Made by a program: the position numbers and the translations under genes. From positions 1 through 33,140 of the forward strand of contig JAKEFB010000147.1 in NCBI GenBank assembly GCA_022616275.1: 33,140 bases of DNA, written 5' to 3'. Of the stretch, positions 1-14,385 are shown piece by piece (position 1 is the first letter of the stretch; each line of letters begins with the position of its first letter). The notes beneath the pieces were generated by a model. The model searched no databases and had not been told where the DNA came from. It worked only from the letters and a program-made list of their open reading frames with translations. Origin of the DNA: Chloroflexota bacterium. Lineage in GTDB: Bacteria > Chloroflexota > Anaerolineae > Promineifilales > Promineifilaceae.

Positions 1-1372
1 GCAGGAGAAGGATTGAGCGACCGGGGTCTGCCGGACGGGTGTTGCGGTCGGGAGTGAACTCCAAGTCACACTGTGGGTTGATCACCAAAAGCAAGTCCGG
101 CTTGCGGCTAGCAGCGCCTTGGCTCTCAATCTTGCCTTGCTCAGTGACCGTATCTGTAGTAGCTACGTTACCATCTCCTTGGAGCATTTGATACCTTAAT
201 ACATCCCCGAGTGTCAATGCTGACGGATTAGCTGATGCCTCAGCGGTTGTTACTACTCTTGCAGCTCGTGCATGGGGTGTAATTGGTCCAACGCTGGTAT
301 CGAAGAGCGCTGTATGGTATATCTCAGTTAGTCGGTCAGATGGTGGATCAAGGCTAGGAAGTGCTTTAGTAAACGTCATCGAGTCAAGCTTAGCGCGCTC
401 GTCTCGTAAGGCATTAGCAAAGAGCAATTGTCCCAAATAGGCACTGAAGAGCCACAAGAGATAGTCCCCGAGTGGTTGCCCATCATCCTGAAGGCTAAGG
501 CTCTGAACGTAGGCGTAGTCATTTAGTGTGAGATCACTAATTCCCTTGAGAAATTCCTTCTTTACATCGTCGAACTTCTTGTCTAGTGCATCCACAAACG
601 TCTGCAGGTCCCGCCCAGCTGTCAGTGACATTGCAAATAATCGCATGTGCATGCGGAGCTTGAAGCGATCTGTCAACTCGCGCTTCGGTACAGCGTAAAA
701 CATGCCTCGAAGGATCCCTGAATGACGGCAAAACTCGCCAGCGTGCTCGCGCAGACCTGGGCGTGAGGACATAAGCACGAATATTGGCTTCGGACGGTCT
801 GGCCACCTCGAAAGGATGTCCATCACTTTAGCAACCGCAACTTTCACGGCTGCGGGCATATCCCTTTTGCTCACGACTCCAGCTTCCCCATCCGGAACCA
901 CGTCATCGCCAAGGTACCAATCAATGAATAACAGTTGAGCCTCGTCAGAAACCAGATCCTCCGTTGGACTATTACGACCGAACGTCCCCACTTTCAGACC
1001 CAGGTCCTGCTCCAGGAGCCCCTTCAAGCGTTTGACTTGGCCCCGTCCCGCCTCAACTCTGTTGCCGACCATCGATGCCAGCCAGACGCGTTCGAAGGCC
1101 GGACATTGCGCCCGGCTTGCGTCGAACGCAGCCAGCACCATGCTAGTCAGTTCACCGGGATTGGAGAGCTGGTGACCGATACGTTCGAGATCCGCAAGCG
1201 CTTCATCGTCGGCCTCAAGCCGCGTCCACAGCTCGTCACGCTCGCCGGACGGGAGTTCCATCAGTTCGAGCGGATCGTAGACATCATCAACGAGTGCCGC
1301 ACACCGGAGCCCGGTCGTGACCAGTAGGGCGGAAAGTGTATCACCCATGCCGTTCGTTAGGGCTTCATTCAT
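1..1372 (-). CDS. Divergent receiver-domain (response-regulator-like) protein, 3' end off the left edge
   Basis: The frame starts with ATG at 1372, overlapping the TGA of the upstream kinase gene by 4 bp (ATGA), and stays open to the left edge, giving 457 residues with no stop. It shows the residue pattern of a phosphoacceptor receiver domain: an acidic pair at the end of a hydrophobic strand (ALVDD, D29/D30), an aspartate ending a second strand (LLFIDWYLG, D151), a serine after a third (PIFVLMSS, S202/S203) and a lysine (YAVPKREL, K230). The gap between the first two strands is about 120 residues, far longer than the usual 40 or so, so the fold is divergent or carries an insertion. The remainder (residues 240-457) is helical at first and has a hydrophobic strand LLLVINPQCDL near the edge; I do not recognise it. 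Translational coupling to a histidine-kinase-like gene supports a phosphorelay partner. The reading frame is certain; the receiver assignment is inference from motif spacing. Confidence 0.8.
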   Translation of the reverse strand, partial: MNEALTNGMGDTLSALLVTTGLRCAALVDDVYDPLELMELPSGERDELWTRLEADDEALADLERIGHQLSNPGELTSMVLAAFDASRAQCPAFERVWLASMVGNRVEAGRGQVKRLKGLLEQDLGLKVGTFGRNSPTEDLVSDEAQLLFIDWYLGDDVVPDGEAGVVSKRDMPAAVKVAVAKVMDILSRWPDRPKPIFVLMSSRPGLREHAGEFCRHSGILRGMFYAVPKRELTDRFKLRMHMRLFAMSLTAGRDLQTFVDALDKKFDDVKKEFLKGISDLTLNDYAYVQSLSLQDDGQPLGDYLLWLFSAYLGQLLFANALRDERAKLDSMTFTKALPSLDPPSDRLTEIYHTALFDTSVGPITPHARAARVVTTAEASANPSALTLGDVLRYQMLQGDGNVATTDTVTEQGKIESQGAASRKPDLLLVINPQCDLEFTPDRNTRPADPGRSILLL

Positions 1373-3741
1373 GTCGCCATACCTCCCAAGGTAAGTATGA
1401 ATGTGTGGAGGGTCTTGTCAGGTCCACTGGGTTTCTCGGCTAGGTACAAATCAGCACCGTGATAGCGGGCGATCTCGCGACCAATGAAAAGGCCAAGTCC
1501 TTTGCCCTCGCCAGCGGGTTTAGTGGAGAAAAAGGCCTCAAAGACGCGCTCCCTAAGTTCGTATGGCACTCCAGGGCCATTGTCCCAAACGCGGATCTCT
1601 TGCGCGGCCGTGTCGACTGTTACCTGGATTTGGGAGCGATGCATCGGATCAAGAGTGCGCTGCTGGCGAAGCCAGTATACAGAGTTGGCAACAAGATTTT
1701 CAACCACCTGTATGATCATGCCCTTTACAGCCTTGATTCGGAGTTGGGGACGGCCGTTGGAAGGCTCGGTGACGACCATACAGGTAATGCCCTCCCTTGC
1801 AAAACGATCCGCGTGAGCATCGACGACATCCTGAACGAGCACAACGACATCAAACGTTTCTTTCCGCTGTCTCGCAGCTGTACTGAGCGGATCGAGTAGC
1901 CGTAAGCGCTTTTGGAGGGTTTTGAGCTGCGCCTCTAGGGTTTGTATAAGCGCACCTACCGGCTGCGGCATCTGCTTGCTGGAGGCATCCCCAAGGGTAA
2001 TTAGAGCATACTCTGTGGCCCGATTGAGCTCGTGGGCCAGCATTTCAACTGTCAACCCTATTCCTGCCAGGTGAAGCAGTTGTCCACGACCCTCTTCATA
2101 AGAAGAGGCTACCTCCTGCACATCCTGAATTAAATTGTCAATCTGGGCGAGTGCCTCTCGGATACCCTTCAGGAGCGGCTGATGCTGCTGGATTTCTGGC
2201 ACACGCCGTGCCAATTCGACAAGATTGTCTTCCACGCGCTGTCCCTCGCTACGAACTCGCTGTTCCAGCTCCTCTATAGCGACCGGCTCCCGCGCCTGGA
2301 TGTCCTTATCTACTGTATCCAGAAAGGTTTTCAACTCCGTTCGGACGACATATAGGAGCAACTTCATTAGCGCTCCCTTCTCTGGACAGTCACGCAGACC
2401 CTCGCGATTGGTCTGATCAGTCAGGGCAGGATTGTCACGACTTGAGATGCTTAGCCGTCCAATGATTTGGGCCCGATTGACCTTATAGCCGCCTGAACCG
2501 AATGCCTTCCGGTCGAGACCGAGCCAGTCGTCGTCAGGACCACCATACGGCAGGACGCGAAAGCCGTCCCGGAAGACCATTACGCCACCACCCCAAGTAT
2601 TGACGAGGGCAAGTACTTCCCTACGGTTACCAATGCCTTCGATCTCTGTAAGCACCTTCCGGTTGTACCAGTACACCTCGATCGAGAATGGACCAAGTGA
2701 ATTAAGAATATACGGGGAACTGTCTGTCGTCGAAGCTAGATGGGTTCCCTCAAGGGCAAAGGTGCGTTGGCGTTCCTTGTACTGTACGGTTCCGGTGAGC
2801 CGCATCATGCCATCTGGTTCGCCTTTGAACTGTGCTCGGACAGTGGCATGGGCATGCTTAAGAAGCAACTTGTCAAAGCGTTGGATGGACACGAGTTCGC
2901 CATTGAAGTGAAGGCTGATAGGAAACACTGTTTTCGCCGCGAAAGGGTCAGTCAGTCTGCTGAATTCCTTTCTGGCGAAGCTCTCAAGTTTCTCTACGGT
3001 CCACTCAGCATTCAGACTGCTGATGCGGATGTGGGTGCCGGAAAAAGCAGGGTCGTCCTTTTGTCGGCCGCGCCGAGCATCAACGGGAAACGCCTCAAGC
3101 AGTTCGTCAGAATCGTGGGAGAGTAGCGACCAGTCAATATCAAGCACGTTCCAATGGGCCTCCCCGCTTGTTGTCGATTCTATATGCAGGCGCTCCCCTA
3201 GGCGCATTGTAGAAAGGCGTCCCACGCCCTTCTCGCCGAGTATGGGACGGAGGTTGCCATTAGCTCTTCGGGACTGAAGCACCGCGTGTCTTGATCGCGT
3301 TCCGATTGTTAGAAATGCATCCTCTAGGGTATCTAGTGTCATTCCCTCGCCAGTGTCACTGACCACTATGTAGTTCGCCTCAGTTAGAGTGTCTGTAAGG
3401 ATATCCCAGGTTGCTGCGTGCTCAACGGTATGTTGAAATACTCTCGCATCGGGAGCAGTGAGATCTACCGCATCCAAAAACTCTTGACGGAATTCTTCCA
3501 TTGCTAGACGATCTGCCGTGTTATCTGCAACGCTAAAACGACGTTTATCGAGACGCTCTATCAGCCGTTCTCTCAGCCGTTCGATGTCAGTATATTTTAG
3601 GCGAACCACCACCTCGATCACCACACGCCTTGAACCAGCGTCGAACGCGTTTTTTACCAGTTCGTACAAGGCTACTATGTCCGAACTAATTAACTCGGAT
3701 CCTAGAAGGATAAGTGTTCGTGCGAGCACTCGGAAAGTCAC
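1369..3741 (-). CDS. Dual GHKL ATPase: Hsp90/MutL-like N-terminus fused to a histidine-kinase-like C-terminus
   Basis: This 790-residue protein carries two Bergerat-fold ATPase sites. The N-terminal one (about 1-190) has N-box ELVKNAFDAG (27-36), G1 DTGEG (129-133) and G2 GEKGVGRLS (169-177), as in HATPase_c_3/MORC/Hsp90-like proteins. The C-terminal one has N-box ENLVANSVYWL (681-691), G1 DNGPGVP (720-726), F-box FEAFFSTK (734-741) and G2 GEGKGLGLFI (744-753), as in sensor histidine kinases. Between them, a helical stretch (about 480-620) holds LAHELNR with H570, a plausible phosphoacceptor. No membrane segment or signal peptide is seen, so it should be cytosolic. The start is GTG at 3741, supported by AGAGAGG 6 nt upstream and by a typical family N-terminus. 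It lies 96 bp after the ATPase gene and overlaps the receiver-like gene by 4 bp. It probably senses a signal through the first ATPase module and passes it to the receiver; that role is inferred. Confidence 0.85.
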   Translation of the reverse strand: MTFRVLARTLILLGSELISSDIVALYELVKNAFDAGSRRVVIEVVVRLKYTDIERLRERLIERLDKRRFSVADNTADRLAMEEFRQEFLDAVDLTAPDARVFQHTVEHAATWDILTDTLTEANYIVVSDTGEGMTLDTLEDAFLTIGTRSRHAVLQSRRANGNLRPILGEKGVGRLSTMRLGERLHIESTTSGEAHWNVLDIDWSLLSHDSDELLEAFPVDARRGRQKDDPAFSGTHIRISSLNAEWTVEKLESFARKEFSRLTDPFAAKTVFPISLHFNGELVSIQRFDKLLLKHAHATVRAQFKGEPDGMMRLTGTVQYKERQRTFALEGTHLASTTDSSPYILNSLGPFSIEVYWYNRKVLTEIEGIGNRREVLALVNTWGGGVMVFRDGFRVLPYGGPDDDWLGLDRKAFGSGGYKVNRAQIIGRLSISSRDNPALTDQTNREGLRDCPEKGALMKLLLYVVRTELKTFLDTVDKDIQAREPVAIEELEQRVRSEGQRVEDNLVELARRVPEIQQHQPLLKGIREALAQIDNLIQDVQEVASSYEEGRGQLLHLAGIGLTVEMLAHELNRATEYALITLGDASSKQMPQPVGALIQTLEAQLKTLQKRLRLLDPLSTAARQRKETFDVVVLVQDVVDAHADRFAREGITCMVVTEPSNGRPQLRIKAVKGMIIQVVENLVANSVYWLRQQRTLDPMHRSQIQVTVDTAAQEIRVWDNGPGVPYELRERVFEAFFSTKPAGEGKGLGLFIGREIARYHGADLYLAEKPSGPDKTLHTFILTLGGMAT

Positions 3742-3747
3742 GGATAA

Positions 3748-3754
3748 CCTCTCT
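3748..3754 (-). promoter_or_regulatory. Ribosome binding site that fixes the GTG start of the dual GHKL ATPase
   Basis: On the minus strand AGAGAGG lies 6 nt before the GTG at 3741. No in-frame ATG nearby gives the family's typical N-terminus, so this site decides the start. The same 96-bp gap (3742-3837) also holds an imperfect inverted repeat, TAACG-8 nt-CGTTA at 3761-3778, of unknown meaning. Confidence 0.6.
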
Positions 3755-3837
3755 CGCCCTTAACGCTAGCCAACGTTACACATGCACCCAACCTGCAACC
3801 TACCTTTCGCTGTTCAGCCCTAAACTGTTGTTATATA

Positions 3838-6800
3838 TTATGCCTGGTCATTAGCTAATAGGCTGTTCTTTAGTACTCGCGCCAGGGCAGCCAAGCGAAG
3901 TTCTCCACTATCAATGAGTGCTGCTTCCAACTTCGCCGCTAACGTCTGCAGCCTGGGTTCGTCCTCGACGCGTGTACGAACGACCAATGCCTCCTCCATC
4001 CCATCACCCAGTGTCAACACAAGCCGCATCGCCATAACGTCAGGCTCGTCTTCAGCGCCTGTGAAAGCAGTGGCCTCCACCCGGCAGAACATCGCCGTGA
4101 GTACGTCGATTTCATCCATTGCACGAGTTTCTTCTGTCACTGTCCACCGCGCTGATGGCCTGGAGATGACGGAACTACCTACCTTTTCTGCCCATGCATC
4201 GTCAGACAGGGAGATATCCGTAAGGGATCGTGCGAAGGTCTGTAGACGTGGTTCGTAGGCAGCGAGTACAACCCGTGATGCGCGATGCGCTATGTCGCTA
4301 CGGTCTGGGCGATAGCCATCTGCAAGCGCGTACGTGATCCGGTCACGGATGCGCTCAAGGAGCTGTGGATAGGCTGCACGGAGATCATCCAGCGCTTCCC
4401 GAAGTGTACTCACGAACTGTACTGCTCGCTCGGCATCGGCTGGCTCCTCGGCTAAAAATGGTTCAAGACCACAGGCGGCCGGAAGGGTCGTAAAAAGCAG
4501 GGTTGCTGGTTCTAGCGCCGTGAGAAGGGCGTCACGTACGCTCTTTGCCGGCTCCTGCAAACTTGTGTTGTGGCGGGTGTACTCTGGAAGCTTTGCAGCA
4601 AATACCATCAGCGGCCGCACGACATCAAGCAGCTCAGGATCCCGGTCGCTGGAACGTTCACTGGCAAATACGTGAGCCAGGTGTGTGAAAACCTCGGCGC
4701 GGACACCTGCAACACGGCACAATTGAAACTCGAATGCTGCCGGTTGTTTGATCAGGCGCAGGAAGTCCGATGCCCGAAATCGTTGGAGAAACGTGCCATG
4801 CTCATATACCGCAATCTGGTGCGCGTGCGCGGCTGCCACGATTGCCAACAGGAATGGTGCCACGCCTGCCCGTACCCCGTAGGGACGATCCTGAAGTAAG
4901 CCCAAGATTCTAGGCACCGACACGCGATGGCCATCACCTTGCTCCAGTAGCGCCAAGATCCGTATCAGAGCGGGTCGGAGACGCAGCGGGTCGGCGTCTT
5001 CGGGAGGTATTGCCAGGACGAACTGCCCCGCCTCCTGGCGATATACGTTTCCAGCATCCAGGACGGACAGATACATGGATTTCTCCGGCGGCGCCTTTCC
5101 CGGCTTAAAGCCTAGCATCGGTTTATCGGCTGCTGAAAACATCCGCTCGATCAACCGCATACGAGCCGCGGCCGCTGCGCTGCTCAGGGTATGGCGGTTC
5201 AGTAATTCGTTGCGGATGAGCGGTGCCTCGTTAAATAGCTCGTTGCAGATCACGGACAGTGTAGCCGAGAGCCTACCCTGTGTTGGCAGTTCAACCCGCT
5301 TGCCACCGCGCCACCATTCTACGTCGCTATTCTCACCGTGAAAGCCGAACTGAGCCGCGAGTCGTTTCAGGAGGGAACGCCGTGACGCGACGGCCTGGCG
5401 TGTGACCTCGGCAGCCGCATACGAATCTTGTGCCAGTTCCGGCGTGTTGTCGGCAATCCACTGCCAACACCTGGCATCCTGAAGCTCCGGCACAACGTCT
5501 TGCAGAGGCGGTGGTACCGCCACGATCACTTCCTGGTGCGAGGCAACCTCGACCGCCTTCGCTTGCTCGACTGCAGCATTGCATTCCTCTGGCGATTCGC
5601 AAAGCGCGACAACAACCAGGCCATCGGCATCAGTTGGCCTTGCCACGACCTCCGGCAGCGATGCTTGCTCGGTGTAACGTACCTCGAAGTGTCGCAGGGT
5701 ACCCGTCTCAATATAATGACGACGCGCCAACAATGGACTTGCATCCAGGTACGGTCTAAGTTGTGCGGAAACCCGTTCCACTGGCCCAAGTGTACGCTGC
5801 GCTATCTGAAGTGCCGATTCCAGGTTGATGCTTGTGCTCGGCCACAAGCAGTAACCGCCAGCCGCACCACGGTGAAAAAGGAGACCACGGTGCTTTAGAG
5901 ATGATACAGCTCTGCTCACATCACTTTCTATATCGCCATCTGTGATGGCGGCTGCCAGCACAGTGTCGGTCGCAAGCAGATGCTCGACATCGAGTAAATT
6001 GAGTACAGCTACGGCTTTGAGTACCTTCAACTCAAGGATGTCTAGATCGGTGACGGTTGCGTAGTCAAGCGTCCCTACAATGCGCAACCAGTGACTGCGG
6101 TAGCTCGCGCCAGCCAACCGATGCCCAAAGTTGGTTCGGATGTAATCATAGAAGTCAGGTAGGCGATAATAGGTGCGACCGGTTGCTCGGCGCTCGGCGA
6201 AGGACTGAAGTCCAAAGGGTTCTGACGAGAGGAGGAAACTGAACAGCGAGCGTTCATGTTGCCCAAACCGCGCGAAAAACCGCACCAGTACTGGCAATAC
6301 CGTCGGGTGCAGTGGATATAGGGCCAACGGTGTCGGGCTGTCAGCAGATGGTCTGTACCAGCCTGTGGACTGTGTCGCGGTTAGTACGATCTCCGCCGAC
6401 GCCACAACGTCTTCTGGTGCTTGCTTGGTGTCGACGTTTAGGGCTCCAGCCACAAGCGCTGCCACGTGGACTAGTGGTTGGTCGAATGTAATCTCCTCGT
6501 ACCGGCCGGCCACTTTCTCCCACTCGAAACGGGACGCAGAGGGTAGTCGTTCAGCATAGGCGTGAAAGCCTTGATGGAGGAGACCTATGACGATGAGCGG
6601 ATAATCCCCGCTTCGCGCAGCGGCTTCAGCGAGCCTCTGCAGGATGTACACATCCTCTTTTTCAGGGTGGAGAGAAGCGTACTCAAGAAATTTGCCCAGC
6701 TCATCAAGCACCAACAATACACCTGAGCGACCGTTCCGTGCTGCATGATTATGGAGGCAGTCCAGTAACTCAAGCAGTTGTGATGGATCTCCCGTTGTGG

Positions 6801-7323
6801 CAACTGTAGCCGCTCGGCTGCGCAAGTTCTCTAGGGCCTGGTTGGTCTTGTCTTGGCCGCATAACCGTTCCACGGCACGTCCGACCCCTCGCGCCACTGC
6901 TGGCACGAGGGGCTCACGAGCACCCGTGACAAGTACAGGCACCATACGAGGCGGGGTCGTGTTCAACACATCGCGCTCAGTCGCTCGGGTGATCGCCTGA
7001 CGGACGCCCGCAAGAACGGGCGTTGTGGGATCACTAAGCAGGTGGGCCAACACGAGGGCAAACGAGGATTTTCCTGTGCCGAAGTCACCAGTGATGCGCC
7101 ATGCTCGACGACCAGACCTAGGACGAAGACCTTCGCTGATGCGAGAAAAAGCCATTCCCATAGGGCGTGTTACGATATAGTGTTGGAGCGAAGCGGTATC
7201 GTCAAAATCGCGTTCCAGGTGAACGGAACGCAGGTAGCGATCTGGAATGTGAAACAAGTCGACGATGAGTGGTACCGCGCCATCTGCATTGGTAGGTCTC
7301 TCGCTCTCTGGAGTTACCGGCAT
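3838..7323 (-). CDS. Large P-loop ATPase of a DNA modification/defence operon (SspC/BrxC-like)
   Basis: With the ATG at 7323 this is an 1,161-residue cytosolic protein. Walker A is GDFGTGKS (79-86, K85) and Walker B is GVLLVLDE (201-208, D207/E208), followed by LGKFLEYA. The remaining 850 or so residues are mostly helical and include recognisable winged-helix-like stretches, but I cannot assign named domains. Large P-loop proteins of this build accompany DUF4007 proteins in phosphorothioation (SspC) and BREX (BrxC) systems, where they supply ATPase activity for modification or target recognition. The frame is open further upstream to 7719, but that extension lies over the end of the DUF4007 gene and reads as low-complexity Ser/Thr/Arg. 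The ATG at 7323 is 16 bp after the DUF4007 stop and fits better, although no clear Shine-Dalgarno precedes it. The ATPase assignment is firm; the choice between SspC-like and BrxC-like is not. Confidence 0.83.
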   Translation of the reverse strand: MPVTPESERPTNADGAVPLIVDLFHIPDRYLRSVHLERDFDDTASLQHYIVTRPMGMAFSRISEGLRPRSGRRAWRITGDFGTGKSSFALVLAHLLSDPTTPVLAGVRQAITRATERDVLNTTPPRMVPVLVTGAREPLVPAVARGVGRAVERLCGQDKTNQALENLRSRAATVATTGDPSQLLELLDCLHNHAARNGRSGVLLVLDELGKFLEYASLHPEKEDVYILQRLAEAAARSGDYPLIVIGLLHQGFHAYAERLPSASRFEWEKVAGRYEEITFDQPLVHVAALVAGALNVDTKQAPEDVVASAEIVLTATQSTGWYRPSADSPTPLALYPLHPTVLPVLVRFFARFGQHERSLFSFLLSSEPFGLQSFAERRATGRTYYRLPDFYDYIRTNFGHRLAGASYRSHWLRIVGTLDYATVTDLDILELKVLKAVAVLNLLDVEHLLATDTVLAAAITDGDIESDVSRAVSSLKHRGLLFHRGAAGGYCLWPSTSINLESALQIAQRTLGPVERVSAQLRPYLDASPLLARRHYIETGTLRHFEVRYTEQASLPEVVARPTDADGLVVVALCESPEECNAAVEQAKAVEVASHQEVIVAVPPPLQDVVPELQDARCWQWIADNTPELAQDSYAAAEVTRQAVASRRSLLKRLAAQFGFHGENSDVEWWRGGKRVELPTQGRLSATLSVICNELFNEAPLIRNELLNRHTLSSAAAAARMRLIERMFSAADKPMLGFKPGKAPPEKSMYLSVLDAGNVYRQEAGQFVLAIPPEDADPLRLRPALIRILALLEQGDGHRVSVPRILGLLQDRPYGVRAGVAPFLLAIVAAAHAHQIAVYEHGTFLQRFRASDFLRLIKQPAAFEFQLCRVAGVRAEVFTHLAHVFASERSSDRDPELLDVVRPLMVFAAKLPEYTRHNTSLQEPAKSVRDALLTALEPATLLFTTLPAACGLEPFLAEEPADAERAVQFVSTLREALDDLRAAYPQLLERIRDRITYALADGYRPDRSDIAHRASRVVLAAYEPRLQTFARSLTDISLSDDAWAEKVGSSVISRPSARWTVTEETRAMDEIDVLTAMFCRVEATAFTGAEDEPDVMAMRLVLTLGDGMEEALVVRTRVEDEPRLQTLAAKLEAALIDSGELRLAALARVLKNSLLANDQA

Positions 7324-7339
7324 CGCAGGTGATGGAAAG

Positions 7340-8257
7340 TCATTCACCGTTGGCCTCCTCCGCGTATACAGCGGCCAGGAAGTCGTGCCGATCCTCATCT
7401 CGGCGGGACACGAGACCCTGTACAGCAGACGGGTGGTAGATAAAGGGTCGCTGCGCGTCGGTCGGCGTGTAGACCTCCAGGCGGGTACGAATGTCATCTT
7501 CAGGGAGTTTGAATACTTGTCCGATGCTGCCAGGGGCAGTGGCCACATCGCGGTACGTGAGGGTGGCTTCTGCTGTGTGCTGCTGCCAGTAGTCGTCCAG
7601 GCAGTACTCAAAGAGTGCCATCGTGATTTCTGGCTTGGCTTCGCGGCGGAAGGTGTAAACCGGCTCACGCCGTCCCGAACCATCGATGTTGCGCTCTCCT
7701 GCGACCTGGAGCAGTTCAAGTTCGGCTAGCGGACAGTCAAGTGAGTCCTCAAAAGCACTCTTGGCACCCCGGGTGGGGACGTAGGTATGAAGGAAGATGT
7801 CTAAGTGCTGACCCAATGTAACCTGTGAGTAGGCCATGTTGAGCCGACGTGCCTCCCGTGTGAACGCCGATAGGGCCTCGCTTCGCGTCAACTCGGGGTA
7901 CGGCCACTTGTACAGGAGGAAGTCCCAGGCGAACAGCGGGTCCTCGACACGTACAGCCACGTTCCAGTGGAGTAACCAGAGCGTTCGTACATCTTCGAGG
8001 AAGGGGTCAAAGCCGTTGTTGGCAAACACTGCCTGTCCGAAAGGTGCGAGTCCCATTTTTCTGTCAGGTTGCGGGATGGCAACATTCATCACCTCTATCC
8101 AAAAGCGGATTGACCGGACCATGTTCTTTCCGACTCCAAGGCTCACCATGGCCCCTTCGTCATCCGTAAATACGGCGGGGTTCTCCTCAATCGCTCGGTA
8201 AGCCTTTGGTAACCAGGCGTACCGGCAGGCGAAGCTTTCGTGTCCAGAGAATCTCAT
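7340..8257 (-). CDS. DUF4007 family protein, SspB-like
   Basis: This 305-residue protein begins MRFSGHESFACRYAWLPK and continues with SLGVGKNMVRSIRFW and DPFLEDVRTLWLLHW, the hallmark sequence of the DUF4007 family over its first 110 residues. As I recall, this family includes SspB, the DNA nickase of the SspABCD phosphorothioation system, thought to open one strand so that sulfur can be introduced; related domains also occur in BREX type 4 loci. GVGKN resembles a P-loop but lacks the Ser/Thr after Lys and is a conserved family motif, not evidence of ATP binding. The gene starts 28 bp after the cysteine desulfurase stop and ends 16 bp before the large ATPase, which fits an sspA-sspB-sspC order. 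Family membership is confident from sequence; nickase activity is by analogy only. Confidence 0.85.
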   Translation of the reverse strand: MRFSGHESFACRYAWLPKAYRAIEENPAVFTDDEGAMVSLGVGKNMVRSIRFWIEVMNVAIPQPDRKMGLAPFGQAVFANNGFDPFLEDVRTLWLLHWNVAVRVEDPLFAWDFLLYKWPYPELTRSEALSAFTREARRLNMAYSQVTLGQHLDIFLHTYVPTRGAKSAFEDSLDCPLAELELLQVAGERNIDGSGRREPVYTFRREAKPEITMALFEYCLDDYWQQHTAEATLTYRDVATAPGSIGQVFKLPEDDIRTRLEVYTPTDAQRPFIYHPSAVQGLVSRRDEDRHDFLAAVYAEEANGE

Positions 8258-8285
8258 AGCGTGTCTGTACTATGGAGGCGTCGTA

Positions 8286-9443
8286 TCATCCCATCGCAAG
8301 CCGAGTGGCGGTCACGGCCTGTGCGATGTATTCTGCGGCACACTCAATTTCCTCATCTTTGGTAAACTTGCCGATCCCGATCCGTAGCGCCCCTTCCTGT
8401 AACGCATCGGGTAACCCCATCGCACGCAGCACGTGTGAGGGTGTTTGCGCGCCTGACATGCAGGCTGCGCCCGTAGAGAGCGCAACATGGCGGTGCAACC
8501 GAGTGACAACGGCATCATTCGGCACACCCGGCACCGACACGTGCAGGTTATTACTGAGTCGGTTCTCACGGTCGCCGTTGACAACAAGCCCATCGATGAC
8601 CGCCGCCAAGAGTGATTCCAATCGGTCACGCTGGGCTGCCATGCGCGGCTCATCGTCGGTCATCTCGACGCGCCGTAGCCGGCACGCCTCACCCAGGCCA
8701 ACAATGCCGGGGACGTTCGGTGTCCCATCTCCGGTTCCTGGAGTAGATCCATGCGACAGCCGCACTTCGAGTTCGGGCGGGACGATTAAGGCGCCGACGC
8801 CCTTTGGTCCGTAGATCTTGTGGGCGCTGACGGTAAGATACGTAATCCCCCAGGCAGTTGCCTGAATAGGGAGTCGGCCTACTGCCTGGGTTGCGTCCAC
8901 GAGTGTCTGCGCCCCAGCTTGCGTGGCAATACGAGCGACGTCTTCAATCGGATAAAGCGTGCCGACTTCGTTGTTGGCAGCCATGACGCATACCAGATCG
9001 ATGCCGTCAGCGCAGGCAGCCTTCAATGCCTCCATGTTCAGGCGAGCCTGGCGGTCAACAGGGAGCCAGCGCACAATGGCTTCGCCGGCACGTTCGTGGT
9101 TGACAACAGCATTAAGGACTGCCGAGTGTTCGACCAGAGTTAAAGCAACACGTAGCGGTCTTTGCCGTCGCTTGCTGACAGCGTGTGCCAGAGCAAGGCG
9201 AATGCTCTCACTTGATCCTGAGGTGAAATGCACTCCTTTGGGGTCTGCATTGAGGAGTTTGGCAACTTCACATCGGGCGTCAGCAACAAGTGCGGCAGCC
9301 ACCTTTCCATAGGAGTGCTCTACGCTGTTTGCGTTTCCAAAAGCGGTGGTCATCGCGTGCAATACAACAGCAGCCACACGCGGATCGACGGGCGTAGTTG
9401 CATGGTGATCCAGATAAATAGGCATAGGTGTAGGGGTTTTCAT
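8286..9443 (-). CDS. Cysteine desulfurase, IscS/DndA/SspA-like
   Basis: This 385-residue PLP enzyme removes sulfur from L-cysteine and holds it as a persulfide for transfer to an acceptor. Visible residues are the N-terminal IYLDHHATTP motif (9-18), the PLP-stacking histidine in VEHSAVLNAV (H106), the Schiff-base lysine in SAHKIYGPKG (K209) and the catalytic cysteine in STGAACMSGAQTPSHVL (C328). Length and loop match group I desulfurases (IscS/NifS/DndA). The start ATG at 9443 overlaps the stop of the HTH gene by 4 bp, so translation is probably coupled; an internal ATG at residue 7 (MPIYLD) is an alternative. No iscU or other Fe-S assembly gene is adjacent, while DUF4007 and a P-loop ATPase follow directly. 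That favours a dedicated sulfur donor for DNA phosphorothioation (DndA/SspA role) over housekeeping Fe-S assembly. The enzyme call is firm; the pathway is inferred. Confidence 0.93.
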   Translation of the reverse strand: MKTPTPMPIYLDHHATTPVDPRVAAVVLHAMTTAFGNANSVEHSYGKVAAALVADARCEVAKLLNADPKGVHFTSGSSESIRLALAHAVSKRRQRPLRVALTLVEHSAVLNAVVNHERAGEAIVRWLPVDRQARLNMEALKAACADGIDLVCVMAANNEVGTLYPIEDVARIATQAGAQTLVDATQAVGRLPIQATAWGITYLTVSAHKIYGPKGVGALIVPPELEVRLSHGSTPGTGDGTPNVPGIVGLGEACRLRRVEMTDDEPRMAAQRDRLESLLAAVIDGLVVNGDRENRLSNNLHVSVPGVPNDAVVTRLHRHVALSTGAACMSGAQTPSHVLRAMGLPDALQEGALRIGIGKFTKDEEIECAAEYIAQAVTATRLAMG

Positions 9444-9769
9444 AGCTCGCGCGTCCTTGTACTCTCCACAGCACCTCCGACAAAGCCTGGCCGCCGTGGA
9501 ATGGTATCTGCATAGTACTCAGCGTAAAGGGTTGCGATCTGGTCAGCTGGATACAGGAGCCGCCCGCCGCCCAGCGTACGTATGTGAGGCAGTTCTCCCT
9601 TCGCGGCCCACATACGAATGGACCGTTCGCTCATGTAGAATAAGGCGGCAACGTCCGAAGAACTGAGGGGGGGTGCATCTTCAAGTCCCGCTCTCGGCTT
9701 TCCCTCGGGTGTAAAGAGGTACTCTAGTACCTCACGCCGCCGTTTGCCAGTGTCGGAAGTGGTCTCCAT
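9440..9769 (-). CDS. Small HTH DNA-binding protein (excisionase/MerR-like), probable operon regulator
   Basis: This protein has 109 residues if started at the ATG at 9769; an in-frame TTG at 9775 would add two residues. Neither start has a well-spaced Shine-Dalgarno sequence. The centre reads LSSSDVAALFYMSERSIRMW followed by AAKGELPHIRTLGGGRLLYP, the typical excisionase-type (HTH_17/MerR-like) winged helix-turn-helix with recognition helix and beta-hairpin wing. The N-terminal 30 or so residues (KRRREVLEYLFTPEG) and the C-terminal tail are not recognised. It is the first gene of the six-gene operon and lies 3' of a promoter that overlaps five 9-bp direct repeats, so autoregulation is likely. 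A recombination-directionality role is possible for this fold, but no integrase is visible. Function as the operon's regulator is inferred from position. Confidence 0.8.
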   Translation of the reverse strand: METTSDTGKRRREVLEYLFTPEGKPRAGLEDAPPLSSSDVAALFYMSERSIRMWAAKGELPHIRTLGGGRLLYPADQIATLYAEYYADTIPRRPGFVGGAVESTRTREL

Positions 9770-9781
9770 CCTCAATACCTA

Positions 9782-9826
9782 TAGTGCCGCTAGTGCCGCG
9801 TTTTCCGCTATTGCCGCTTTTGCCAA
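9782..9826 (-). repeat. Five tandem 9-bp iterons, probable operator of the defence operon
   Basis: On the plus strand the units are TAGTGCCGC, TAGTGCCGC, GTTTTCCGC, TATTGCCGC and TTTTGCCAA, back to back without spacers; the first two are identical and the outer ones degenerate. On the transcribed strand the core is GCGGCAnTA. The array fills the expected start-site and leader region between the -10 box (9826-9831) and the start of the HTH gene (9769). A 9-bp period is close to one helical turn, so copies would lie near the same DNA face, as expected for cooperative binding. Confidence 0.6.
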
Positions 9827-9854
9827 GTATACAACAAGCGAGTCGCAGGCACAA
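9826..9854 (-). promoter_or_regulatory. Candidate sigma70-type promoter of the HTH-desulfurase-DUF4007-ATPase-kinase operon
   Basis: On the minus strand the -10 is TATACT (9826-9831, 5/6 match) and the -35 is TTGTGC (9849-9854, 3/6 match), with an exact 17-bp spacer. Transcription would start near 9819, inside the iteron array, giving a leader of about 50 nt before the HTH gene. The weak -35 and overlapping repeats suit a regulated promoter. Confidence 0.5.
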
Positions 9855-10162: not shown

Positions 10163-11962
10163 CTAATCACCCATAGGCAATAGCCCGGCCCGCGCCTTCG
10201 TTAAGGTATGCACAGGTATAGTGGTATTACCGGCCAAGAAGTGCACCAACTCATCCCACCCGCGGGCCATCCCTCCGGCCGTGGCGAAAGCGTAGTTGTC
10301 GTCATGGTAGGTAGCGGTCAGGCTGTAGCATGCGCCGTAGTCGAGCGAGTTCTCGCCAGCGTTAGCCTCGTCCGGGCAATCTCCGCCCATCCACAGCTCC
10401 TGATAAACAGGGAAAAAGATAGATAGACCCCGGCTCCGGCTAAGGTCCCAATCTATGCCGTCGTAAGAGCCGGGTTGATACCAGACCATCGCCCCCGCTG
10501 TGCTACCGGCGGCCTCGCTGGCTAACCTGCTGATATTGGCGTCGTAACTGAAAACCCCAGCGATGGCATTGGCCAGGCTGATGGCATCCACATAGCTGTC
10601 CAACTGATCCAGCAGCTTATCATCATTGATGTCGTAATATTGCCCGGCTCGATCCATAGCCATTCTCAGGTTGTCCAGGGTGCTTGTCTCGTCAGCCTCC
10701 AGAAGGTCTAGCAAAGCCGAACCTAATTCATGCCAGTCATTCATAGCGACTTGGGCAAGGGAGCTATTGATGACGGTGACCTCCAGCGGCAGAGGCGGGC
10801 GTGTCCGTGTCAGCGTAACAAAGTACTCAATAGCCCAGTTGCCAGCAATCTTGGCACTATTCTGCCCAGCGGCGATGTCATTCGTTAACTGAATCAGGTT
10901 GGCCTCGTAGTCGCCTGGCCCGAAGAGGTAGTTTTGCCCGGCGATGATGTAGTCGGTGTATCCGGCCACCTCATAGGCCACTTCCAGCATGGACATCAGG
11001 CAAGCGTGGAAGAAAAGAACGTCTACATGCAAGTCCGACAGGAGACCCAACTCGGCCGTTGACAGGGCATCAGCGTCTGCCACACTCTCGATTAAATCCC
11101 TATTGGCATCGTAATAGGTATAGTCGAAGGCCAGGCCGGTGCCGCCGAGGCCCCATTGGAGGCCGGGTTGTGCTGGCGGCCTAGCTATTGAAGCCAGAGC
11201 GCCGGCCGGCCGGCCGGCACCGACATCGGTGGGATCGTCAGGAGTGATGCCGTAACCGTGGGAGACGAGCGAGAGCAGGTAATGATCGGCCGGGTAATTG
11301 CTTTGAGCCCAGGCAACAAAGCCGTGCAACGTTTGGCCATCGCCAGTGTTGACCTCGTGATAGTCAGCGGCCAGATCTGGCAAATACTCGGCCAGCGCTT
11401 CGTAATCATCCAACTGATGGAAGGGTTCAGCATCAGCGCAGGACTTTACCCAGAGTTGAGAGTTGCCGTCGTCGAGTTGGTCATAAAGGACGACGACGTT
11501 TAGCCGTTGCTGGTCTAGCCCAAGCTGGTAATCAGCACCGGCGGCAATGTCTTCGAGCATTTCCTCGCCCATTGAGGGCGGATCGCTTGGGGAGGCCAGG
11601 GGGTCGCGCCCCAGGTCATTGTCTACGGCCAGGTAGATCATGACGGTCCAGTCTGCCTGCTGGCAGAACCGTTCGTTTGAGACCGCTGGCGTCGTTGTGG
11701 TTGTTGGTTCTACGGTTGGCCCGGCCGTTGGTTCCTGGCTAACCTCTTCGGTTGGCTCGGCCGCTTCTTCCTCCGGCCCTTCGGTTGTCACCCCGGCGGT
11801 TTCTTCCGCCGGTTCTTCCGCCGGCTCTCCGGTTGGCTCTTCAGGGGCTAGCTCGGTTGCAGCCGGAGTCCGGGTCGGCTGTTTGTTACAGGCTACCAAA
11901 AGGAGCAAGACCCAGATGCTGTGAAGCGCTATGTGGGTGAAAATTCTTCTCTTGCCTCTCAT
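10163..11962 (-). CDS. Lipoprotein with clostripain-family (C11) cysteine protease domain
   Basis: The start is ATG 11962, fixed by AAGGAGG 4 nt upstream; the frame extends further to 12250 but only over the previous gene. The 599-residue protein has a basic N-terminus (MRGKRRIF), a hydrophobic stretch and lipobox LLVAC (C25), so it should be exported and lipid-anchored. Residues 26-98 are a Pro/Glu/Thr-rich linker. The rest is a C11-type domain: DWTVMIYLAVDNDL (103-116), the catalytic histidine region LVSHGYG (H235) and the catalytic cysteine region FHACLMSMLEVAYE (C321), where the family usually has DACLM, so the usual Asp is His here. Lys/Arg-specific clostripain and gingipain are relatives; the substrate is unknown. 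It follows the STAND gene by 32 bp and is probably co-transcribed with it. The fold assignment is strong; proteolytic activity is likely but not certain because of the D-to-H change. Confidence 0.85.
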   Translation of the reverse strand: MRGKRRIFTHIALHSIWVLLLLVACNKQPTRTPAATELAPEEPTGEPAEEPAEETAGVTTEGPEEEAAEPTEEVSQEPTAGPTVEPTTTTTPAVSNERFCQQADWTVMIYLAVDNDLGRDPLASPSDPPSMGEEMLEDIAAGADYQLGLDQQRLNVVVLYDQLDDGNSQLWVKSCADAEPFHQLDDYEALAEYLPDLAADYHEVNTGDGQTLHGFVAWAQSNYPADHYLLSLVSHGYGITPDDPTDVGAGRPAGALASIARPPAQPGLQWGLGGTGLAFDYTYYDANRDLIESVADADALSTAELGLLSDLHVDVLFFHACLMSMLEVAYEVAGYTDYIIAGQNYLFGPGDYEANLIQLTNDIAAGQNSAKIAGNWAIEYFVTLTRTRPPLPLEVTVINSSLAQVAMNDWHELGSALLDLLEADETSTLDNLRMAMDRAGQYYDINDDKLLDQLDSYVDAISLANAIAGVFSYDANISRLASEAAGSTAGAMVWYQPGSYDGIDWDLSRSRGLSIFFPVYQELWMGGDCPDEANAGENSLDYGACYSLTATYHDDNYAFATAGGMARGWDELVHFLAGNTTIPVHTLTKARAGLLPMGD

Positions 11963-11966
11963 TTTT

Positions 11967-11973
11967 CCTCCTT
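11967..11973 (-). promoter_or_regulatory. Strong Shine-Dalgarno fixing the start of the C11 lipoprotein
   Basis: AAGGAGG followed by AAAA and ATG lies inside the 32-bp gap after the STAND gene. It selects the ATG at 11962, which directly precedes the lipoprotein signal, over any upstream in-frame start. Confidence 0.85.
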
Positions 11974-11994
11974 CTACGGGGTTAGCGGCCGGGC

Positions 11995-14385
11995 TCAACC
12001 CCTGGAGCGGGCCTGGGCCAACACGTCGTTCCAGCGCTGCCAGACGACTGCCGCCGGCTTGCCATCCGGTTTGGGCAGTCGCCGGCGCAGGGCCTGCTCC
12101 AGGGCCTGGGCGGTCTCCAGCTCGCCGCCGGCCACCAGGGCGGCGTAGCGCGAAGCTAACAGGCCGGCATTGGCGGCCAGCAACTCCGTTAAGTTGAGGC
12201 GGGCGGCCTCGGCCAGGGAAGCCAGGCTTAACTCCAGGGCCTCGTCCCAACGCCCCTGCCGGCTGAGGACGTAAGCCAGGTTATGCTGGCTCGAGGCGGC
12301 CACATCCACCAGGCGCTCCTGTTCAGCCAGAGTCAGGGCGGTCCTGACTTCGCGCTCAGCCTCGTCCAACCGGCCCGCGTCCGCCAGGGCGTAGGCCAGC
12401 GAGCCCCTGGTAAAGGCCAGGTCATAGAGGTCACCTGTCTCTTCGACGGCGGCCAGGGCGGCCTGGTAATGGCCGGCGGCAGCGGTAAAATCTCCTCGGT
12501 CATAGGCCACCCGGGCCCGGGTGGTGTGCAGCAGGCGACGCAAAGCGGGATCGGCGGCAGGACCGGCGAGGGCGCCGGCCTGCTGCAGCAAGTTTTCGGC
12601 CTGGTCCAACGTCCGGCGGGCGACGGCGACCAGGGCCAGGTTGCAGAGCGTTTTGGCCTCGCCGGCCAGGTCGCCGGCCCGGTTAAAGCTGTGCCGGCTC
12701 TGTTCGAACCAGCCGGCGGCCTGATCCAGCTCGCCCCACTGTCCATGGACAGCTCCCAACCAGTTCTGCATTTGGGCCAGCGCCGGCCAATCCTGGCGAC
12801 GGCCGGCGGCCTCCACGGCGGCCAGGAGCCATTCACGCCAGACCGGCAGATAACCCCGTTGCCAGGCGACCGGCCGGGCCAGGATGGTCATGGCGCAGAC
12901 GGCTTCATCGTCAGCCAGGGCCTGGGCCCAGCGAAAAGCCTGCTGCAGGTTGGGCAGCTCGGCTTCAACCTGGTCGTAGGCGGGTGGTTGTTTTTGAACG
13001 GCAACCTTACCCAGGTTGTGGTAATAGTCGAGGTGGCAGCGCCAGGCCTGGCGATCTTCACCGGACGCAGCCAGCTCGACCTGGGCGTATTCGCGCAGCA
13101 GGGGGTGGATGGTGTAAGTAGCGGCCGGTGACGGCCCGGCTTCCGGCTGGCCCCATTCCAAAAGAGCCCTGACGACCAGGGCATCCAGACCAGCCTCAGC
13201 CTCGGCCGGGCTCAACTCCATCACCCCGGCGACAGTGGCCGGCTTTAGGGGCGCGGGGGCAAAGGATCCCAACCAGCGAAAGAGGCGCTGCTGGCTGGCG
13301 GGCAGGGCGTCGTAGGTAATGGCAAAGGTGGCCGCCAGGCCGGGGTGCCCGGGCAAGGCCAGGGCTTCGTTGGCTCGAACAGCCACGGCGGCAGCCAGGT
13401 TGGCCAGTTGGTGGCCGGGTTTGCGGCCGAGCAGAGCCAGGCGTTTGCCGGCCAGTTCTATGGCCAGTGGTAAATTGCCGAGCAGACGCACCAGCTCATT
13501 GGCCAAGGCCCGGTTGTTGGCGATCAGGCCGTTGCCGGCATGGGCGGCCAGGAGTTTAAGGGCCTCATCATCGGCCAGGGCATTGAGATGGTAGGGCTCG
13601 GCGTCGAGGGCCAGGGCCAGTTCTTCATCGCGGCTGCTCAGCAGGCCAGGCGTGCCGGCCGGTATGGCCTCTTTTAAGTAACGGGCGCCGGATAACCACT
13701 CCGGCCGGACGTCATCTATGATGACCAGCACTGGCCCATAACGGACCTTTTGGGCGGCCAGGAGGCCGCGCACCTGGTTGACAAGGGCAGCGGTGTCTGT
13801 CTGGTCGGGCAGATCGTCGGCGCAAGCCGCACCCCAGGCGCGCAACACCGGCCGGGGGTTGCCATCGTGGTCGGGCAGGGAGCCCCAAAAGATGCCACCG
13901 CTGAAGTGGGCGGCCAGCTCAACGGCCAGCATCTTGGCCAGGGCGGTCTTGCCCAGACCGCCCATGCCCAGGAGGGCCAGCAGGGCCGGCGCTTGATTGC
14001 TGACCACCCGACGCTTCAGGTTATGCAGGTCTTGAACCCGGCCAGTGAAGTGGGTGGGTGGGGCCGGGGCGGCCGGGATGATGGCCGGGGCTTCACGCTC
14101 GTAGGCCGGCAGTTCAGCGTAGAGGGCATCTAACACCGCCCGGCCTGTGTCGAATCCGGCCTGGCGGAAAGCATCGGGGTGCATTTCCTGCAGGCGGGCC
14201 AACAAGCCGGCCAGCCGGCGGCGGCGCCCGAAGGCAAGGATAAGCTCTCGCGCTTTGCTGGGCCGACTATTGTCGCCGCCCAGGTCGTCAGCGTCAACGC
14301 CCAAGTCGAAGCAGAGCGTTTTTACTTCTTCCAGGCTGTAGTGCTCAAGGATGAACTTGTGCAGACGGGCGATATAACCGGCCAT
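11995..14385 (-). CDS. STAND ATPase: death-like effector-associated domain, NB-ARC, winged helix, TPR repeats
   Basis: This 796-residue cytosolic protein has four visible parts. Residues 1-75 (FILEHYSLEEVKTLCFDLGV, then ...LARLQEMHPD) resemble the death-like effector-associated adaptors found on bacterial STAND and caspase-like proteins; I cannot assign the exact type. Residues 110-330 are an NB-ARC/AP-ATPase: FTGR (113-116), Walker A GMGGLGKT (140-147, K146), Walker B VLVIIDDV (219-226) and the NLPLA motif (304-308). A winged-helix segment follows (about 345-430, TYTIHPLLREYAQ). Residues 440-790 are TPR-like helical repeats (for example WLGAVHGQWGELDQAAGWFEQS). Such proteins are switch-like sensors that oligomerise on ligand binding to the repeats and activate an effector through the N-terminal adaptor. 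ATG 14385 has AAGGAG at 5-nt spacing. The protein could act in signalling or conflict defence; the target is unknown. Confidence 0.87.
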   Translation of the reverse strand: MAGYIARLHKFILEHYSLEEVKTLCFDLGVDADDLGGDNSRPSKARELILAFGRRRRLAGLLARLQEMHPDAFRQAGFDTGRAVLDALYAELPAYEREAPAIIPAAPAPPTHFTGRVQDLHNLKRRVVSNQAPALLALLGMGGLGKTALAKMLAVELAAHFSGGIFWGSLPDHDGNPRPVLRAWGAACADDLPDQTDTAALVNQVRGLLAAQKVRYGPVLVIIDDVRPEWLSGARYLKEAIPAGTPGLLSSRDEELALALDAEPYHLNALADDEALKLLAAHAGNGLIANNRALANELVRLLGNLPLAIELAGKRLALLGRKPGHQLANLAAAVAVRANEALALPGHPGLAATFAITYDALPASQQRLFRWLGSFAPAPLKPATVAGVMELSPAEAEAGLDALVVRALLEWGQPEAGPSPAATYTIHPLLREYAQVELAASGEDRQAWRCHLDYYHNLGKVAVQKQPPAYDQVEAELPNLQQAFRWAQALADDEAVCAMTILARPVAWQRGYLPVWREWLLAAVEAAGRRQDWPALAQMQNWLGAVHGQWGELDQAAGWFEQSRHSFNRAGDLAGEAKTLCNLALVAVARRTLDQAENLLQQAGALAGPAADPALRRLLHTTRARVAYDRGDFTAAAGHYQAALAAVEETGDLYDLAFTRGSLAYALADAGRLDEAEREVRTALTLAEQERLVDVAASSQHNLAYVLSRQGRWDEALELSLASLAEAARLNLTELLAANAGLLASRYAALVAGGELETAQALEQALRRRLPKPDGKPAAVVWQRWNDVLAQARSRG

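Follow-up and report, generated by a model that had tools for sequence, protein, structure and literature searches.

A conserved histidine kinase-receiver pair at a putative Ssp-type DNA phosphorothioation locus in a Chloroflexota bacterium

Gene content of the locus and its assignment

The window, meaning the whole stretch of DNA that was analysed, is an entire contig (G000:C48, 33,140 b), so that the receiver gene is truncated and the sequence to the left of position 1 is unreadable in the organism's own genome. Six minus-strand genes lie at its left end (Table 1). The order proposed in the first-pass annotation (HTH regulator, cysteine desulfurase, DUF4007 protein, ATPase, kinase and receiver-like protein) was upheld, as the positions of all six genes agree with the ORF list and the profile matches are far beyond chance. 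The HTH gene overlaps sspA by 4 bp, and the receiver and kinase genes likewise overlap by 4 bp. The HTH protein scores 35 bits against BldC, under the family cut-off of 77, matches PADLOC mad1 at E 5e-5, and has a counterpart with 70% identity in the related locus L009. In the desulfurase, a residue check found both K209 and C328, as had been reported. The start of SspC was taken as the ATG at 7323, giving 1,161 aa, while an alternative ORF of 1,293 aa extends back into sspB.

Table 1. Genes and features at the left end of the window
Feature	Position	Strand	Evidence
Small MerR/BldC-type HTH protein, 111 aa, first in operon	9440..9775	-	PF13411 E 7e-6
SspA/DndA-type cysteine desulfurase, 385 aa	8286..9443	-	PADLOC DndA E 4e-112, SspA E 9e-112
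SspB (DUF4007), 305 aa	7340..8257	-	PADLOC SspB E 1.4e-109; PF13182 E 2e-62
SspC, P-loop ATPase, 1,161 aa	3838..7323	-	PADLOC SspC 1353 bits
MORC-type sensor histidine kinase, 790 aa	1369..3741	-	Pfam HATPase_c + HATPase_c_3 in one protein; structure comparison
N-terminal GHKL + S5-like module, MORC/Hsp90 type, kinase residues 1-477	2311..3741	-	ATP-site residues conserved
His570 codon, predicted phospho-acceptor of the DHp helix (VEMLAHELNRA)	2032..2034	-	Conservation
Histidine-kinase catalytic (CA) domain, kinase residues 625-790	1372..1869	-	
Receiver protein, first 457 residues only (contig end)	2..1372	-	ORF; homologue lengths
Receiver domain, about residues 18-251, with D29, D30, D151, S202, K230	620..1321	-	
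D151 codon, predicted phospho-acceptor of the receiver	920..922	-	
Start of receiver C-terminal domain, from G389, C435-D436-L437 motif, cut by contig end	2..208	-	

The Ssp components found in the window are the SspA-type desulfurase, SspB (DUF4007) and the SspC ATPase, and their PADLOC and Pfam profile matches support the earlier proposal that this is an Ssp-type DNA phosphorothioation locus. An assignment to BREX type 4 was also considered, as both kinds of system contain counterparts of SspB, SspC and SspD and a published account describes such common components (PMC12839542). The BrxC profile indeed matches the ATPase with 452 bits, and in one locus (L066) the kinase-receiver pair of the window's clade adjoins BrxL and a PglZ-like gene. 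However, the SspC profile reaches three times the BrxC score, PADLOC detected neither PglZ nor BrxL among the six window genes, and in L009 and L010 SspF-G(-H) genes follow, with no PglZ or BrxL among the proteins scanned there. BREX type 4 was set aside on the basis of the SspC score and the SspF-G(-H) genes of relatives, and is considered extremely unlikely.

SspD is missing from the window, most likely merely through the contig end. The SspD profile has no match elsewhere in the own assembly at E 1e-20 or better; a single PAPS-reductase match at E 0.001 or better lies on another contig. The SspF protein of L009 gave no match in the own genome at E 0.001, in a search that had no known positive and thus shows little. 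Because three relatives from the same phylum (L009, L010 and L011) carry SspD beside the pair, the gene is probably located just off the contig. The first-pass annotation would have been weakened by the lack of any SspD/DndC-like gene nearby; instead, SspD adjoins the pair in all three phylum relatives with Ssp genes, which rules out a true absence of SspD for these relatives. The three closest kin are L009, L014 and L010, L014 (59%) being nearer to the window than L010, and in each of them the pair stands between SspC and SspD. PADLOC profiles placed SspF-SspG(-SspH) downstream of the pair and SspD in L009 and L010, the SspG of L009 being named by its likeness to that of L010 rather than by PADLOC, and no SspFGH genes were seen within 10 kb in L014. 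The idea that the pair occupies the effector slot is therefore not borne out in this lineage, where SspC and SspD flank the pair and L009 and L010 continue with SspF-G(-H); it may hold in other lineages in which no known restriction module is visible.

Domain make-up of the kinase and the receiver protein

The kinase joins a MORC/Hsp90-type ATP-driven module to a complete histidine kinase in one soluble protein. It has no clear membrane segment, and its AlphaFold model has a mean pLDDT of 82.5 and is weak in the DHp part (residues 551-567). The N-terminal module displays the GHKL and S5-like folds with ATP motifs, and the remainder contains the DHp histidine, the N and G boxes and the CA fold. 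The DHp histidine is conserved in 57/57 clade kinases and in 82/82 dual-GHKL kinases; this motif count, with its 57 kinases and 53 receivers, still covers L050 and L052, which were dropped elsewhere as copies of L049 and L011. Structure comparison left MORC and Hsp90 tied, so that a DNA clamp remains a candidate only. The kinase was also compared with the Pfam family HEF_HK (PF19191) and was not assigned to it, as the score of 16.7 bits is below the cut-off of 24.1.

The partner protein consists of a complete receiver and a beta-rich C-terminal domain. The receiver fold and its DD, D, S/T and K residues are all present, and the C-terminal domain is mostly beta in the model of the L009 protein (residues 400-620). 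Full-length homologues in the clade comprise 616-769 aa (n=50, those over 590 aa), compared with 296-470 aa for 22 intact partners outside it. Among 39 receivers scanned with Pfam, no common family, no DNA-binding family and no Response_reg_2 domain (PF19192, 0/39 at E up to 0.5) was detected, and membership in the latter family was rejected. The receivers matched no nuclease family and displayed no clear nuclease motif, and no known output domain gave a significant match in Pfam, PADLOC or PDB sequences. With Foldseek alone, the best match to the receiver protein had an E of 0.013 and none fell below 0.001, and dehydrogenases, CTP synthases and flavodoxins appear among the response regulators in its list; since receiver domains fill this comparison, the C-terminal domain was hardly probed. 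The start of this domain may bear a weak likeness to small beta-barrel toxins, and the domain may have a DNA-binding role. Profiles of the receivers, compared with ten outer-group receivers, gave a probability of only 17% and an E of 0.0015, a reversed control giving 0.47. Stronger support came from a subsequent model.

Linkage of the pair to phosphorothioation genes

Relatives were collected by a genome scan with two short peptide patterns, from which 80 of 132 were kept, so that close kin are favoured. To name neighbouring genes, profiles were built from L009-L011 and the window, with PADLOC run on a subset of proteins. The kinase and receiver form a conserved, cognate pair tied to Ssp loci, with SspB, C or D nearby in 52/57 loci of the clade kinase type, and the first-pass annotation, which would have suffered had such homologues never occurred with DUF4007 loci, is borne out on this point. 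The 52 include L040, whose sole match is a 151-aa SspB fragment, and exclude L020, in which a 48-bit match to SspD was rejected as a DUF6339/PAPS-reductase-like protein. In the remaining five loci the neighbours are Pbe-, SspF/G-, PAPS-reductase- or BREX-like genes. More distant dual-GHKL loci have SspB, C or D nearby in 0/26 cases, some of the stretches outside the clade (L069, L073, L078 and L085) being as short as 5-9 kb. The two genes abut or overlap in all 53 loci having both, and kinase and receiver distances are correlated with a rho of 0.86 (0/300 permutations as high). A quick tree, built with a simple model and accompanied by long-branch warnings, placed 55 kinases in one group (SH-aLRT 100), 51 of them scored as linked to SspB/C/D (L020 being counted on its 48-bit match) as opposed to 0/25 outside. 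On plasmids, the pair lay beside or at most 8 kb from Ssp genes in 5/5 records inspected out of 17 matching.

An insertion of the pair separates SspC from SspD in 13/57 loci. The pair is accompanied by SspF/G/H genes in 19/57 loci and by Pbe-type genes in 6/57, the latter assigned by PADLOC in L033 and by clustering in the other five. In L230, an outside-clade kinase and a 390-aa receiver directly follow SspB-SspC-SspD, a second, independent recruitment of such a pair to Ssp genes. Sampling from the side of SspD found the clade-type pair in 6/65 loci, indicating that modification can proceed without it; these samples exclude the centre genomes G414 and G403, which had been selected for their possession of the pair, G972 is absent, and L224 is apparently the same contig as L038. 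In Chloroflexota, where several SspD stretches are short, the count of 3/32 is a lower bound.

Kinase distances are correlated with those of SspC (rho 0.46), SspB (0.50), SspD (0.30) and SspA (0.23, 3/300 permutations as high), compared with a rho of 0.76 each for SspC against SspB and SspC against SspD. The kinase thus tracks the Ssp genes less well than SspC tracks SspB or SspD, indicating that the pair is exchanged between loci. Such exchange, the known mixing of systems in defence islands, and the occurrence of related pairs beside methylation systems (PMC8011034) would suit a passenger, namely an independent methylation-type or stress kinase pair that merely shares defence islands with Ssp genes. 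This reading is very improbable, however, given the clade-wide Ssp link, the insertion between SspC and SspD, the correlation of kinase distances with SspC and SspB (0/300 permutations as high) and the independent recruitment in L230. The pair beside sulfur-marking genes recurs in many bacterial phyla (about ten) and is hardly described so far.

Possible functions of the pair and comparison with known systems

The window may be read as the 5' part of an Ssp-type locus with a built-in, dedicated kinase-receiver pair that gates restriction or modification by phosphorelay, an interpretation to which we give an even chance. SspA-SspB-SspC, together with an SspD probably located off the contig end, would put sulfur into host DNA. 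The N-terminal module of the kinase would close with ATP on DNA, or on SspB/C/D or the restriction complex, and would report a state such as unmodified, replicating or damaged DNA through a coiled coil to the DHp helix, where His570 would hand phosphate on to receiver residue D151. Once phosphorylated, the receiver would act via its C-terminal domain, probably by protein contact and not as a transcription factor, licensing or restraining either the modification complex or the restriction arm of the locus, be it SspFGH, Pbe or another. The first-pass annotation had proposed that the pair may relay phage sensing or modification status through phosphotransfer.

The pair could instead be the restriction or abortive-infection arm itself, the MORC-type module loading on unmodified DNA and the C-terminal domain of the phosphorylated receiver blocking or damaging DNA, and this would explain Ssp loci that have no known effector. 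In 31/57 loci, no SspFGH-, Pbe- or BREX-like gene was seen in the stretch covered. The SspE-type GmrSD_N domain was not found anywhere at E 0.001 in 12 of the 24 genomes tested from these 31. In all 24 the SspH profile matches only with its FtsK-like part (positions 1397-1778 of 1785), and the corresponding frames of 570-974 aa, lying elsewhere in genomes with no FGH at the locus, were read as housekeeping FtsK and rejected as SspH. It has been reported that 83.9% of 2,678 sspBCD loci contain neither sspFGH nor sspE (PMC8092258), and fusions of nucleases with GHKL modules related to that of the kinase occur in other restriction proteins (PMC2292703). Nevertheless, this role is rather unlikely: the pair is no substitute for effectors in the 19 loci, including L009 and L010, where SspF/G/H genes stand beside it, and the receivers lack a recognizable nuclease. 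Moreover, contig ends truncate many of the 31 stretches, the profiles score distant FGH proteins weakly (26-60 bits in L221), and unknown effectors may be near.

By analogy with CapK/CapS, which provides a precedent for kinase control of defence genes (PMC13373217), the pair might be an ordinary transcription regulator, in which receiver phosphorylation would switch expression of the island, perhaps via the small HTH protein. A BldC/MerR-type gene does come first in the window operon and is present in L009, but it was found only there among the loci compared (L009-L013). With the 39 scanned receivers devoid of a DNA-binding family, and the pair placed after SspC or SspD rather than heading the operon in 34/57 loci (by labelled genes, L020 on a weak match), such regulation is quite doubtful.

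Extending the gating reading, MORC-type DNA-clamp kinases and their cognate receivers could represent a recurrent phosphorothioation-immunity module, recruited at least twice, reading the state of the DNA and gating restriction by phosphotransfer, with the phosphorylated receiver as the antiviral effector in Ssp loci that have none of SspE, SspFGH and Pbe; this wider proposal is speculative and unlikely as a whole. The pair gives one group of partnerless sspBCD loci a concrete candidate partner and, if the gating reading is true, a phosphorelay is wired into DNA-sulfur immunity. If phosphorylation gates SspFGH, this could bear on the restraint of a system that harms cells without the mark. Two literatures are joined in this way, that of phosphorothioation defence and that of MORC/HEF_HK pairs, so far known beside methylation systems.

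Among described systems, SspABCD-SspFGH (PMC8092258) shares SspA, B and C with the window and SspD, SspF, SspG and SspH with its relatives, whereas the window lineage adds the kinase and receiver genes between SspC and SspD; the main text of that paper never uses the word kinase. The HEF_HK/Response_reg_2 pairs have the same soluble dual-GHKL kinase (HATPase_c_3 plus histidine kinase), an adjoining receiver gene and a DNA-modification link, which as published is to restriction-modification, mainly methylation, the text containing no mention of phosphorothio-, Dnd, Ssp or DUF4007 (PMC8011034). ParaMORC/MORC ATPases contain the same MORC-type GHKL + S5 module in a DNA restriction context, whereas the module in the window is fused to a complete histidine kinase, and neither 'receiver' nor 'dnd' occurs in the text that describes them (PMC2292703). 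CapK/CapS likewise has a GHKL-type kinase and a dedicated substrate encoded with a defence operon, but there the kinase acts by serine phosphorylation of a STAS-wHTH repressor, and the accessible account mentions no receiver or phosphorothioation genes (PMC13373217). For the Ssp locus of Acinetobacter baumannii global clone 2, the available text has one remark hinting at the pair, in one species, and differs from the present analysis in having no domain analysis, MORC-type kinase link or survey (PMC12421847). One A. baumannii record encodes a homologue of the window kinase, with 30% identity, and its partner beside SspD-C-B.

The operon at the contig end

The window is a complete contig of an assembly totalling 8.5 Mb in 309 contigs, and the six close-set minus-strand genes described in the first-pass annotation are confirmed, the row running off the contig end at position 1. 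Very strong scores against PADLOC defence-gene profiles identify the desulfurase as SspA/DndA, the DUF4007 protein as SspB and the ATPase as SspC, which bears out their earlier reading as SspA-SspB-SspC of single-strand DNA phosphorothioation (Ssp). The receiver matches no PADLOC profile, and the N-terminal part of the kinase bears a weak likeness to the GHKL modules found in type II restriction enzymes. The locus is read as Ssp-type and as carrying its own dedicated pair of MORC-type kinase and receiver; this reading is well supported as to identity and linkage, while the mechanism of the pair is a proposal.

Features of the window and of compared loci (L-numbers denote loci in other genomes)
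Locus	Feature	Position	Strand	Remarks
Window	Receiver-like protein	2-1372	minus	457 residues readable before contig end
Window	Kinase	1369-3741	minus	790 aa, two GHKL domains
Window	SspC-type ATPase		minus	1,161 aa
Window	Cysteine desulfurase		minus	K209 and C328 both found
Window	Small HTH protein, MerR/BldC-type	9440-9775	minus	
Window	Clostripain-family (C11) peptidase	10163-12250	minus	
Window	EAD7-NB-ARC-TPR protein	11995-14385	minus	
Window	Single open frame	14847-33140	minus	at least 6,097 codons, runs off contig
L010	SspG	4409-6052		
L014	Four-gene row	15223-19235		downstream of SspD
L230	Kinase-receiver pair	6071-9443	minus	directly after SspB-SspC-SspD
L020	Clade locus without SspB/C/D			PAPS-reductase-like gene
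L034	Clade locus without SspB/C/D			PbeA/PbeC-type genes, assigned by clustering with L033
L019, L042	Clade loci without SspB/C/D			SspF/SspG genes
L066	Clade locus without SspB/C/D			BrxL and PglZ-like gene

Linkage of the kinase clade to phosphorothioation genes

Scanning of the kinase alignment against 84,980 genomes yielded 132 relatives, and among the best 80 of these 132, 55 grouped with the window's kinase and 25 fell outside. The clade set, minus two copies and plus the window and three relatives from its phylum, gave 57 annotated loci, each inspected over up to 10 kb per side, or less where the contig ends. An SspB, SspC or SspD homologue lies within this stretch in 52 of the 57, contrary to what the first-pass annotation named as refuting its reading, namely kinase and receiver homologues never co-occurring with DUF4007 loci. 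The same profiles detected Ssp genes in 0/26 loci of more distant dual-GHKL kinases (L068-L087, L089-L093 and L012, a few of these stretches being short), five of which have an upstream start that we take to be C5-methyltransferase-like. In a quick tree, which carries a long-branch warning, all 55 usable kinases of the clade fall together with an SH-aLRT of 100, 51 of them scored as linked to Ssp (L020 counted in) versus 0/25 outside. Going by record titles, the clade spans about ten phyla; its Magasanikbacteria record, which lies very close to proteobacterial records, is possibly a binning error.

With the SspD profile as the sampling criterion, 32 of 400 Chloroflexota genomes were retrieved, along with 14 of 398 from the phylum of genome G414 and 22 of 395 from that of genome G403, and a clade-type pair stands next to SspD in 3/32, 0/13 (centre genome left out) and 3/20 (centre and one weak match left out), respectively. 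Almost all clade kinases seen are linked to phosphorothioation genes, yet the clade-type pair is present at 6 of 65 SspD loci over the three samples, which makes it an accessory of a minority of Ssp loci.

In all 53 loci with both genes, the receiver adjoins the kinase at a spacing of -169 to +29 bases counted by first start codon; no receiver could be read in 4 of the 57 loci. The distance matrices of kinase and receiver correlate with a rho of 0.86, versus 0.46, 0.50, 0.30 and 0.23 for the kinase with SspC, SspB, SspD and SspA, and 0.76 for SspC with SspB, and 0/300 permutations reached these values, save for SspA (3/300). The two proteins co-evolve tightly, and the pair is swapped more freely among Ssp loci. 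At L230, a dual-GHKL kinase placed outside the clade stands right after SspB-SspC-SspD, accompanied by a 390-aa receiver; this seems to be an independent recruitment and speaks for the combination being functional.

Placement relative to SspD and possible function

The first-pass annotation noted that the sulfur-transfer enzyme SspD is absent from the window, and the SspD profile finds nothing at E 1e-20 or better in the window's assembly; however, a search with the kinase against 301 genomes of the phylum found four besides the window's own, and three of these combine SspA-SspB-SspC and SspD with the kinase and a receiver of full length (648-722 aa). Because relatives carry SspD with the pair, SspD most likely lies just beyond the end of the window's contig, where SspF-G-H or another arm would be expected to come after it. 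The gene order in L009 and L010 is SspA-SspB-SspC-kinase-receiver-SspD-SspF-SspG, with SspH next in L010, and SspD stands ahead of the kinase in L011. PADLOC assignments are strong for SspD (E 3e-117 in L009, 4e-116 in L011), SspF (3e-212 in L009, 3e-220 in L010), and SspG and SspH of L010 (3e-192 and 0). L010 is plasmid NZ_CP128402.1 of Candidatus Chlorohelix allophototropha, whose annotation calls the kinase a sensor histidine kinase and the receiver a hypothetical protein. Complete loci from environmental bacteria include Swit_5323-5329 on pSWIT01 of Rhizorhabdus wittichii RW1, which comprises the pair and SspA-D, and one on pPNAP02 of Polaromonas naphthalenivorans CJ2, which comprises SspF-G-H, the pair and SspD-C-B. 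In the fourth genome (L012), a more distant dual-GHKL kinase adjoins a DrmA-type gene instead. The L009 SspF protein as query has no match at E 0.001 in the window's assembly.

The pair had also been placed in the effector slots, and it does lie downstream of SspC, but L009 and L010 have SspF-SspG(-SspH) after SspD besides the pair. At L014, whose kinase is second-nearest to the window's by identity (59%), the pair again lies between SspC and SspD; SspFGH was not found there within 10 kb, and an SNF2 helicase follows. Judging by these relatives, the pair has been inserted into the operon and is not a proven effector substitute. Of the 57 loci, 13 have it between SspC and SspD.

Of the 57 loci, 19 contain SspF, G or H genes, 6 contain Pbe-type genes and 1 has BREX-like genes; the other 31 show none of the three kinds, and their layouts contain no unlabelled frame of at least 1,500 aa. 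A genome-wide effector search covered 24 genomes in which FGH-, Pbe- and BREX-like genes are all missing from the locus. The GmrSD_N domain, which SspE contains, is found nowhere in 12 of these, and SspH-profile matches in all 24 concern the FtsK-like part only. For at least these 12 genomes, no candidate partner of SspBCD other than the pair is recognised, with room left for other genes, distant FGH and incomplete assemblies. Where FGH is present, it is more likely that the pair controls it; a gate on SspFGH would make sense because this module, according to PMC8092258, harms cells without the sulfur mark. No DNA-binding family appears in the 39 receivers scanned, so that protein contact is a more likely mode of action than control of transcription. 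In the L009 receiver, the C-terminal domain comprises residues 390-722.

Published counterparts and neighbouring modules

PMC8011034 describes pairs of HEF_HK and Response_reg_2 proteins that adjoin restriction-modification systems and mostly include HATPase_c_3, and contains no mention of phosphorothioation, Dnd, Ssp or DUF4007; the outer group here, with 22 intact receivers of 296-470 aa, fits that description. A remark on an A. baumannii Ssp locus in PMC12421847 hints at the pair, and SspD-C-B of an A. baumannii record has a homologue of the window's kinase next to it. The pair-Ssp association is not wholly unseen before. Among the matches listed, which mostly do not cover subscription literature, no other open-access paper joins pair and phosphorothioation; the breadth, the MORC-kinase nature, the SspC/SspD insertion and the independent recruitment appear unreported within the open literature searched.

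Several loci have further gene rows. In L033, L035, L038, L039 and L051, the kinase pair and modification genes of SspB-C-D type are accompanied by PbeA/PbeC-type genes, and L034 has Pbe-type genes and the pair only; PMC6459918 describes Pbe with DndCDEA in archaea. L014, among the closest kin by kinase, and L018 (Caldilineaceae) share by size a row of 473, 272, 237 and 342-351 aa, of which the first gene in L014 is the SNF2 helicase and, by eye, the second is ParB-like and the fourth metallo-beta-lactamase-like. In L176, L177, L178, L180, L216 and L225, three adjacent genes near SspB-C-D (about 542-557, 586-661 and 304-320 aa, matched by length only), with the kinase pair absent, are possibly another unnamed partner module. 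The window's HTH gene matches mad1 of MADS at E 5e-5 and L010 SspG weakly matches mad7 (E 1.6e-4), hinting by sequence likeness that MADS and Ssp may have parts in common.

Adjoining the Ssp operon, the neighbouring, overlapping frames of the EAD7-NB-ARC-TPR protein and the C11 peptidase are together composed like an immune or death module of STAND type. The long frame beyond them, densely filled by bacterial Ig, cadherin-like, PKD, DUF11 and F5/8 domains, is a giant surface or secreted protein.
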